From: Chlorobaculum tepidum TLS
GTDB lineage: Bacteria; Bacteroidota; Chlorobiia; Chlorobiales; Chlorobiaceae
NCBI RefSeq assembly: GCF_000006985.1
Contig: NC_002932.3
Coordinates: 333,501 to 397,500, forward strand
Direction of reading: 5' to 3'
Length of the DNA: 64,000 nt
Below, piece after piece: positions 28,825 to 31,450 of the stretch. Both the position numbers and the translations under genes were made by a program. The notes below the pieces were generated by a model. It was not told where the DNA came from and made no database searches. It saw only the letters and a list, made by a program, of their open reading frames with translations. How positions within the stretch are numbered: position 1 is the first letter of the stretch; each line of letters starts with the position of its first letter.

Positions 28825-29409
28825 ATGATAAAAGTAGAGGATATTCTGCGTGCCTACAGGCACGGCTTTTTCCCGATGGCCGACTCTCGCGAGGGGACGG
28901 TGAGCTGGTGCCAGCCCTACCAGCGCGCGGTGGTGCCGCTCGACAGTTTCCGGCCGTCGCGAAGCCTCCGGCGCGTCATTGGCAAAAAGCGTTTTACCAT
29001 CAAAATCAATTCAGTTTTCGAACAGGTGATCCGTGCCTGCTCGCAGCCTCGTTCAACCGGGCAGGAGACCTGGCTTTCGGAGGAGATTATCAAGGTGTTT
29101 CTCAAGCTGCATCGTCTCGGAGTGGCGCACAGTGTGGAGAGCTGGCAGGATGGCGAGCTTGCCGGAGGGCTGTACGGTCTGTCGATGGGTGGGGCTTTTT
29201 TCGGTGAGTCGATGTTCTTTTTTCGGTCTGATGCCTCGAAAGTCGCCTTTGCCTGGCTGGTGGGCTATCTCAAACGCAAAGGCTATCTCCTGCTCGACGC
29301 GCAGATCATGAACCCACACCTTGAGAGTCTCGGTGCGATTGAAATCCCCCACGAAGAGTACATGGTGCAGCTTGAGCGCGCTCTCGGAAAAAAGATTTCG
29401 TTTGTCTGA
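28825..29409 (+). CDS. aat: Leucyl/phenylalanyl-tRNA--protein transferase
   Basis: 194 residues, family length about 200-230. Conserved blocks are AYRHGFFPMADSREG (usual Y-x-x-G-x-FPM), CSQPRSTGQETWLSEEIIKV, HSVESWQDGELAGGLYGLSM and GGAFFGESMFFFRSDASKVA. It adds Leu or Phe to N-terminal Arg/Lys of proteins for ClpS/ClpAP degradation (N-end rule). Last gene of the three-gene run starting at 27173. Confidence 0.95.
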   Translation: MIKVEDILRAYRHGFFPMADSREGTVSWCQPYQRAVVPLDSFRPSRSLRRVIGKKRFTIKINSVFEQVIRACSQPRSTGQETWLSEEIIKVFLKLHRLGVAHSVESWQDGELAGGLYGLSMGGAFFGESMFFFRSDASKVAFAWLVGYLKRKGYLLLDAQIMNPHLESLGAIEIPHEEYMVQLERALGKKISFV

Positions 29410-29582
29410 GAAGCAAAGGGGAAAAGAGCTACCTTTTTCTATTTGACAACGGGTTGAAACGCGGCCTTTATTCAACGTTCGATCAACCGCTGTTTTCGAA
29501 GCACCAATTCTTCTTGGTGCATTTTGAGATGGATGCGAGAAGCGTCATGGTTCATTCACCTATAAAACAAACGCCGACGGCA

Positions 29583-29999
29583 ATGAAACAGAGATTTTTA
29601 CAGGCTTTCTTTATCGTGTTCGCAATAAGCAGCTTTTTTGGCGGCGTATCGCTTGCGGCTGATTCATCACCCGCAGTTTCCAAAAAGGCGGCAACCAGTC
29701 CGGAATCCGGGAAGACGGTTTCCAAGGATATTTCAAAGCCAGGCGTCTGGTCGAAGTTTGAAATGCTTTCATTCACGGATCGGGTAGTATTCAGGGATAC
29801 TATGGCCGGTCTTACAGGGGTGGGCTATGAGCCTCTTGTTGTCAGGAAGCAGATTGTTGAAGGCGTGAACTACGAATTTTTCTGTAACGCGAGGGCCGTC
29901 TATCCTGGCACGGATTGGCATCCTGCAATGGTGCTGATTTACAAGCCACTGAAAGGCAACGCAGTCATTAAGAAGATCAGCAAGATAGATGGGCGCTGA
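29583..29999 (+). CDS. Small secreted protein with cystatin-like QxVxG motif
   Basis: 138 residues from ATG at 29583; an upstream in-frame extension to 29454 is not hydrophobic in the right place. Signal peptide MKQRFLQAFFIVFAISSFFG with a likely Ala cleavage site (SLAADSS). The mature part has a Ser/Lys-rich linker, then GVWSKFEML, GVGYEPLVVRKQIVEGVNYE and FFCNARAVYPG. QIVEG matches the QxVxG protease-binding loop of cystatins and the surrounding beta-strand pattern fits that fold. A single Cys remains in the mature part. Function unproven; monocistronic. Confidence 0.6.
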   Translation: MKQRFLQAFFIVFAISSFFGGVSLAADSSPAVSKKAATSPESGKTVSKDISKPGVWSKFEMLSFTDRVVFRDTMAGLTGVGYEPLVVRKQIVEGVNYEFFCNARAVYPGTDWHPAMVLIYKPLKGNAVIKKISKIDGR

Positions 30000-30148: not shown

Positions 30149-31450
30149 ATGTCGTCGAGAGATTTATCTGAAAAACAGTCTCCGCCAAGGATTATCATCT
30201 ATTCCGGCAAAGGGGGAACGGGCAAGACCACCATTTCGTCCTCTACGGCAGTCGCCCTTGCACGACAAGGCAAACGGGTGCTCATCATGTCCTCCGATCC
30301 GGCTCACTCGCTCTCTGATGTGTTCGGCGTGCAGATTGGCCGCAACGAGCCGCTCAAGATCGAAAAGAACCTGTACGGTCTCGAAGTCGATACCATCTAC
30401 GAGCTGAAGAAAAACATGTCGGGCTTCCAGAAGTTCGTCTCTTCGTCGTACAAGAATCAGGGCATTGACAGCGGCATGGCTTCGGAGCTGACCACGCAGC
30501 CAGGTCTTGACGAAATCTTCGCGCTTTCCCGTCTGCTCGACGAATCGCAGTCCGGCAAGTGGGACACTATCGTGCTCGATACCTCGCCGACCGGCAACAC
30601 GCTTCGACTGCTCGCCTACCCGGAGATCATCATCGGCGGCAACATGGGCAAGCAGTTCTTCAAGCTCTACAAGAGCATGTCTTCGCTGGCGCGTCCTCTC
30701 TCGGGCAACAATATTCCCGACGACGACTTCTTCAACGAGGTCAACGTGCTGCTCAAGCAGATGGAGGACATCAACGAGTTCATTCTCAGCCCGGAGGTCA
30801 CCTTCCGGCTGGTGCTGAACCCGGAGAAACTCTCGATTCTCGAAACCAAGCGCGCCTATACTTTCGTGCACCTCTACGGTATCAATATCGACGGCATCGT
30901 CATCAACAAGATTCTGCCGACCTCGCGAACCGTGGGCGAGTACTTCGAGTTCTGGGCCGATCTGCACAGCAAGTACCTGATGGAGATCGACAACTCCTTC
31001 TATCCGACGCCGGTCTTCCGCTGCCACCTGCAACGCACCGAGCCGATCGGCCCCGACGCTCTCTACGACATCAGCCAGATCGTCTTCGGCGAAGAGGCTC
31101 CCGACAAGACCTTCTATTCGGGCAAGAACTTCTGGATCGAGAGCAAAAAGAATCAGGCGACCTCTGACAACCGCGAGGTGCTCTGCATCCGGATTCCGTT
31201 CCTCAAGGACGCCGCAGATGTCTCGGTCGAGCGTATGGGTACCGACATCATCGTCACGGTTGACCGCGCCCAGCGCAATATCACCTTGCCAAGGGCGCTC
31301 TACAGCCTCGACATGGATCGCTTCGTCCGTGAAGACAACATACTGAGGGTGATCTTCAAGGAGGTTAAGGTTGACAAGGAGGAGATGGAGCTGAACGTCA
31401 ACAAGAACGTTCTTGACAAGTTGCGCTCCATGCGCCGCCTGAAAATCTGA
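30149..31450 (+). CDS. ArsA/Get3-family ATPase with C-terminal HSP20-like domain
   Basis: 433 residues from ATG at 30149, which has AAAGGAG 8 bases upstream; a GTG at 30140 lies inside that site and is rejected. The deviant Walker A YSGKGGTGKTTISS, SSDPAHSLSDVFG (A-loop/switch I) and DTSPTGNTLRLLAYPE (switch II) define the family. Residues about 340-410 form an ArsA-type HSP20-like domain (IPFLKDAADVSVERMGTDII). No Cys triad for arsenite is present, so it is more likely a Get3-like targeting or assembly ATPase than an arsenite pump. Paralogues are common in Chlorobi. Confidence 0.85.
   Translation: MSSRDLSEKQSPPRIIIYSGKGGTGKTTISSSTAVALARQGKRVLIMSSDPAHSLSDVFGVQIGRNEPLKIEKNLYGLEVDTIYELKKNMSGFQKFVSSSYKNQGIDSGMASELTTQPGLDEIFALSRLLDESQSGKWDTIVLDTSPTGNTLRLLAYPEIIIGGNMGKQFFKLYKSMSSLARPLSGNNIPDDDFFNEVNVLLKQMEDINEFILSPEVTFRLVLNPEKLSILETKRAYTFVHLYGINIDGIVINKILPTSRTVGEYFEFWADLHSKYLMEIDNSFYPTPVFRCHLQRTEPIGPDALYDISQIVFGEEAPDKTFYSGKNFWIESKKNQATSDNREVLCIRIPFLKDAADVSVERMGTDIIVTVDRAQRNITLPRALYSLDMDRFVREDNILRVIFKEVKVDKEEMELNVNKNVLDKLRSMRRLKI

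Follow-up and report, generated by a model that had tools for sequence, protein, structure and literature searches.

A secreted stefin-type domain in Chlorobaculum tepidum as a probable inhibitor of papain-like proteases

A gene at positions 29583-29999 on the forward strand of the window (the whole 64,000-nucleotide stretch of the Chlorobaculum tepidum TLS genome that was analysed) encodes what we interpret as an exported stefin-type inhibitor of a papain-like protease, most likely a foreign one, and we put the probability of this reading at about 0.62. Cystatins inhibit papain-like proteases and are known from animals and plants. That the protein belongs to the cystatin superfamily (I25) is close to certain, and by its sequence features the domain is to be placed with the stefins (type 1, I25A) and not with the type 2 cystatins. 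The gene is almost certainly the one reported in 2009 by Kordis and Turk (PMC2784779), whose relevant passages count stefins in 17 bacterial genera, name Chlorobium tepidum and record its stefin as unique among 12 Chlorobi genomes; its novelty is therefore low. The description of the protein as cystatin-like in a sequence-only reading of the window thus holds for the superfamily, on both fold and profiles, and can be narrowed to the stefin kind with its one cysteine, but the protein had not gone unnoticed.

The translation comprises 138 amino acids from an ATG start to a stop codon, and the reading frame and peptides quoted earlier were borne out letter for letter. In the aligned homologous loci, the start and stop regions are common to the orthologues. 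Since these share the start MKQRF or MKKKF, a longer, mechanically called frame from a TTG at 29454 was rejected as an unlikely gene. Residues 1-26 (29583-29660; this and all other features of the gene lie on the forward strand) form a predicted signal peptide, plain to the eye, with a K/R n-region, a hydrophobic core and an ...SLAA end, the cleavage site (...GGVSLAA / DSS) being placed by eye. Comparable leaders are present in 8 orthologues, and the leader agrees with the secretion that had been proposed. A low-complexity Ala/Ser/Pro/Lys linker follows (residues 27-52, 29661-29738; predicted disordered, pLDDT about 50), whose amino acids change faster than those of the domain, and residues 53-138 form a single compact domain. 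A promoter and terminator scan of the locus gave no signal exceeding shuffles.

The leader and the start of the linker (29583-29723) resemble those of two small, otherwise unrelated proteins encoded in the same genome (G000, a single contig of 2,154,946 bases), located at C1:515736-515861 (L173) and C1:1302935-1303057 (L174), with E-values of 6e-12 and 3e-11. Their products are Lys/Ala- or Arg-rich, and many Chlorobiaceae loci match the stefin query solely at the leader. Judged by sequence, this appears to be an export leader that is typical of the lineage and used repeatedly.

The AlphaFold2 model, built with 47 sequences, predicts a single helix and four strands for the domain at pLDDT 95-98, with the helix lying against an antiparallel sheet as in the cystatin fold; structure prediction had been set beforehand as a refutation test. 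Gly54 (29742-29744), the N-terminal glycine expected in the protease cleft, is at least 90% conserved, its equivalent (G28) is invariant in the A3 alignment, and it lies ahead of the helix. The alpha-1 helix itself (residues 64-74, 29772-29804) falls inside the stretch KFEMLSFTDRVVFRDTMAGL where it had been expected. A strand of residues 80-92 (29820-29858) runs into QIVEG (residues 90-94, 29850-29864), the predicted QxVxG first inhibitory hairpin, and is followed by the strands NYEFFCNARA (residues 94-105, 29862-29897) and HPAMVLIYKP (residues 113-122, 29919-29948). Next comes PLKG (residues 122-125, 29946-29957), a stefin-like second hairpin without Trp in which P122 and G125 are invariant in the A1 alignment, and the last strand covers residues 128-134 (29964-29984).

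Compared with the domain model by VIA, CsStefin-1 (5zc1) gave Z 10.9 and rmsd 2.3 over 82 aligned residues, Dictyostelium cystatin A2 Z 10.5 and rmsd 2.5 over 79, and stefin B from its papain complex (1stf) Z 9.9 and rmsd 2.6 over 81. The VIA matches listed are cystatins and known derivatives of them, such as monellin, Affimers and SQAPI. With the whole mature model, cystatins fill Foldseek ranks 1-23 (prob 0.90-1.00) at modest E-values, the best being 1e-3 with a TM of about 0.5, which we count against the inhibitor reading. A common fold alone is no proof of function.

Type 2 cystatins have two disulfides and a Pro-Trp second hairpin. The C. tepidum protein has a single cysteine (residue 101, invariant in the A1 and A2 alignments) and therefore no internal disulfide, and its second hairpin is PLKG; it thus lacks the type 2 (I25B) traits and shares the missing disulfide with type 1. 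Type 1 proteins also have no signal peptide and are cytosolic, and because of the leader at residues 1-26 we speak of a secreted stefin-type domain rather than a canonical stefin. Chagasin (I42) was rejected, the protein having no Pfam match, PF09394 having no match in the genome and the model being cystatin-like. In the passages concerned, Kordis and Turk (PMC2784779) make the absence of a signal peptide part of their definition of stefins and do not discuss the leader of the C. tepidum protein.

Sequence relationships became visible with family profiles. As a single sequence, the protein had no match in Pfam or NCBIfam up to an E-value of 10, reached E 1 at best in the PDB and found no relative in a scan of wider genome contigs. 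The family profiles reached the PDB cystatin 6i1m at E 3.4e-4 (A1), 2e-6 (A2) and 1e-8 (A3), the last with the help of rows found by motif. A1 consists of 13 rows from 15 Chlorobiaceae loci, without L002 (in-frame stop) and L015 (a copy of L014); A2 comprises 21 sequences and took 8 of 10 Bacteroidota loci, without L032 (a near-copy) and L040 (degenerate); A3 combines 46 of 80 loci with the window sequence. The Pfam model PF00031 weakly touches 11 of the 21 family members (best E 0.039) and does not match the C. tepidum protein itself; the bacterial group lies below the reach of this model. The SQAPI model matches 6 of the 21, with a best E of 0.0069. We count these missing and weak family matches against the inhibitor reading.

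Conservation of the motif was assessed solely from the whole-protein and profile searches, neither of which contained a motif pattern. The former gave 16 matches in 98 genomes of the class, 15 spanning the domain and one (G085) covering only the leader; the latter matched 55 of 394 genomes of the phylum, 25 of them with the domain (15 Chlorobiaceae, 10 other Bacteroidota) and the remainder in the leader region only. At these 25 loci, chosen without the motif, QxVxG is present 24 times (15/15 Chlorobiaceae, 9/10 Bacteroidota), the exception being L040, which has several in-frame stops; the conservation that had been named as a check is therefore found. The A2 scans of genome contigs and viral sequences used a peptide pattern containing QxVxG, and their rows are uninformative in this respect. 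QxVxG and the following NY are invariant in 13/13 aligned homologues, and the positions invariant after the start Met in this alignment are W56, F70, V80, Y82, P84, Q90, V92, G94, N96, Y97, C101, I119, P122 and G125. The domain is under purifying selection, with dN/dS of 0.12-0.22 (15 pairs, 6 genes; some dS values approach or exceed 1). That an unrelated secreted protein carries the motif by chance, a view for which the missing Pfam or NCBIfam match of the protein itself might speak, is ruled out for practical purposes by the invariant QxVxG, the profile matches to PDB cystatins such as 6i1m, the AlphaFold2 fold and the VIA matches.

The motif-based scan of genome contigs returned 362 relatives, of which 80 were kept, from Bacteroidota, Pseudomonadota, Bacillota and others, so that the distribution of bacterial stefins is now wider than the 17 genera given in the relevant passages of PMC2784779. 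A crude heuristic, which overlooked at least L066, assigns an export leader to about 12 of the 80, and these include lipoprotein-type leaders in gut bacteria. Gut Bacillota and Alistipes (L063, L066, L079, L082, L122) encode stefins with leaders of this type, several of them with tandem domains, and the sequences suggest surface-anchored inhibitors. Clustering of the neighbourhoods of 92 loci revealed no partner gene of evident function, the recurrent neighbours being common to related organisms.

Diverged stefin-like proteins, some in tandem, were also found in real phage contigs (L136:4659-5273, L137:4932-5204, L180:6001-6273, L184:6001-6270, and further in L185-L190 and L192), several of which look like copies of one phage. 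The frames of L180 and L184 adjoin a terminase and a portal gene, with a major head protein further along in L184; those of L136 and L190 lie near an endolysin and a DNA primase, respectively. None of the five phage frames tested matched a PHROGs family. Comparison of the phage and bacterial stefin profiles gave a probability of 97.5 (E 6.7e-12), and the L184 model, whose alignment included bacterial stefins, matched tarocystatin by VIA with Z 9.5 and rmsd 2.1 over 77 aligned residues. One phage record (H1/MT837993) was dropped, its frames looking like a bacterial fragment. When the predicted C. tepidum model was compared with predicted viral proteins, no match reached E 0.001, and a Catovirus cystatin-domain protein ranked first at 4.6e-3. 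If confirmed, the phage relatives would carry a protease-inhibitor fold into phage biology.

These relatives bear on whether a genuine stefin fold has been repurposed, as in monellin or SQAPI, into a binding scaffold or a non-papain inhibitor whose QxVxG blocks no cysteine protease. SQAPI scores slightly above Cystatin in some relatives, and the phage proteins retain the fold yet lose parts of the motif. The C. tepidum protein itself has QIVEG where relatives most commonly have QVVAG, and Gly-Val at the N-terminal glycine where most have Gly-Gly-Trp; we also count both deviations against the inhibitor reading. Set against this, QxVxG, the N-terminal glycine and the second-hairpin proline are kept across Chlorobiota and Bacteroidota, beyond the needs of a scaffold, and we consider repurposing unlikely.

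At the locus itself, the gene lies between aat, encoding leucyl/phenylalanyl-tRNA--protein transferase (28825-29409, forward strand; TIGR00667 at E 2.3e-60, over the cut-off, and PF03588), and a gene for an ArsA/Get3-family ATPase with a C-terminal HSP20-like domain (30149-31450, forward strand; TIGR00345 at E 6.9e-70, PF02374 and PF17886). We regard both genes as mere flanks of the stefin; because it is also present in genomes without the stefin, the ATPase is apparently unrelated to it. Eleven of the 21 genomes of the genus carry a single copy of the stefin, and in 10 of these 11 it lies on the downstream side of aat and precedes the arsA-like gene; G011 carries it elsewhere. The remaining 10 genomes have no stefin, which we count against the inhibitor reading, and in nine of them aat and arsA are separated by 72-200 bp; in the tenth (G010) no arsA was present in the stretch inspected. 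The position of the stefin between aat and the arsA-like gene in a Chlorobaculum subclade is new here. A tree of the stefins, with 94 columns only and a poorly supported backbone, unites eight Chlorobaculum-type rows in one clade (99/96), separate from the Chlorobium-type rows.

In two carriers (G008 and G009), one extra gene separates aat from the stefin (L163:1603-3030, reverse strand; L164:713-1993, forward strand). It encodes about 426-475 amino acids with a leader-like start, and neither Pfam nor NCBIfam has a match for the copy in L164.

The closest relative (G004, locus L002; 86% identity) carries a TGA in frame shortly behind the leader and an otherwise open domain, and this too counts against the inhibitor reading. 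The stop may be a recent break; as G004 appears to be the same record as L046, a MAG, an error of assembly is possible too. Apart from such an error, a broken copy in the closest relative would make the stefin dispensable.

As for the target, the C. tepidum genome has no match to the peptidase families PF00112 (C1A), PF03051 (C1B) or PF01650 (C13), on which ground an endogenous target of these classes was rejected and a foreign papain-like protease becomes the likeliest one. Among the 98 genomes, some of them incomplete, C1 peptidases occur in 4/15 stefin carriers and 42/83 non-carriers (p = 0.10; p = 0.20 when restricted to 21 genomes). There is no significant link between stefins and C1 peptidases, which we count against the inhibitor reading, and nothing suggests that an endogenous target goes along with a stefin. 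NlpC/P60 enzymes have a papain-like fold. Two NlpC/P60 genes are present in the genome and the stefin has a leader, so regulation of endogenous periplasmic peptidoglycan endopeptidases of this family might be envisaged. Nevertheless, the stefin is missing from 10 of the 21 genomes of the genus and we know of no cystatin that inhibits NlpC/P60, and we regard this target as highly improbable.

C. tepidum lives freely as a phototroph in anoxic hot-spring mats and has, to our knowledge, no host, which tells against a role in blocking cathepsins of eukaryotic hosts or grazers. In favour of such a role, stefin relatives occur in gut and animal-associated bacteria; against it, they also occur in those of soil and water. 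The motifs are the same as in eukaryotic inhibitors, and in the passages concerned Kordis and Turk (PMC2784779) propose that bacterial stefins and cystatins inhibit eukaryotic host proteases. For the C. tepidum protein we think this an improbable explanation.

Inhibition of a foreign papain-like protease thus remains our preferred reading, with inhibition of a papain-like protease as such being likely. The signal peptide would export a stefin-type domain on a flexible linker and, as it precedes both, the protein is expected to work outside the cytoplasm, presumably in the periplasm or the medium. There, Gly54 and the QIVEG (90-94) and PLKG hairpins would form a wedge, as in solved stefin and cystatin complexes, that reversibly blocks a papain-like (C1) cysteine protease at its active-site cleft. 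This protease would come from another organism, whether a bacterial competitor, a predator or a mat eukaryote.

Much more tentatively, stefins may constitute a widespread mobile prokaryotic family in microbe-versus-microbe conflict. If so, the Chlorobaculum stefin domain, behind its lineage-typical leader, would be exported to shield the cell from the papain-like proteases or toxins that neighbours produce, and the diverged, often tandem phage stefins would serve a related purpose. Sequences of bacterial cystatins and stefins have been on record since 2009, and the relevant part of a 2012 review (PMC3594739) called for further experimental data. The open-licence literature searched showed no title on an experimental study of a bacterial stefin, no assigned target of bacterial cystatins or stefins, nothing on C. 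tepidum and cystatin jointly or on stefin and horizontal transfer, and nothing apparently related to phage-encoded cystatins; no cystatin appears in the relevant passages on the C. tepidum OMV proteome (PMC12285230). C. tepidum is a useful case, with its leader and with natural presence/absence pairs across its genus at the single aat-arsA locus, and the foreign-protease hypothesis can be tested in it because it has no detectable C1 or C13 peptidase of its own.

We know of no solved bacterial cystatin. The best PDB sequence relative of the protein, 6i1m, is a secreted type 1 cystatin of Fasciola hepatica (VIA Z 9.6, rmsd 2.7, 81 aligned) that likewise combines a stefin-type domain with export; it differs in being an animal parasite protein, with 22% identity over the structural alignment. 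Stefin B (1stf) and CsStefin-1 (5zc1) share with the C. tepidum protein a single domain, the absence of a disulfide, QxVxG and a second hairpin without Trp (Z 9.9-10.9), whereas typical stefins are cytosolic and the C. tepidum protein has a leader and a linker. SQAPI (PF16845), a plant aspartic protease inhibitor, also has the cystatin fold and shows a weak sequence match in some relatives, but it targets a different protease class, while the C. tepidum protein keeps the QxVxG cleft-binding set.
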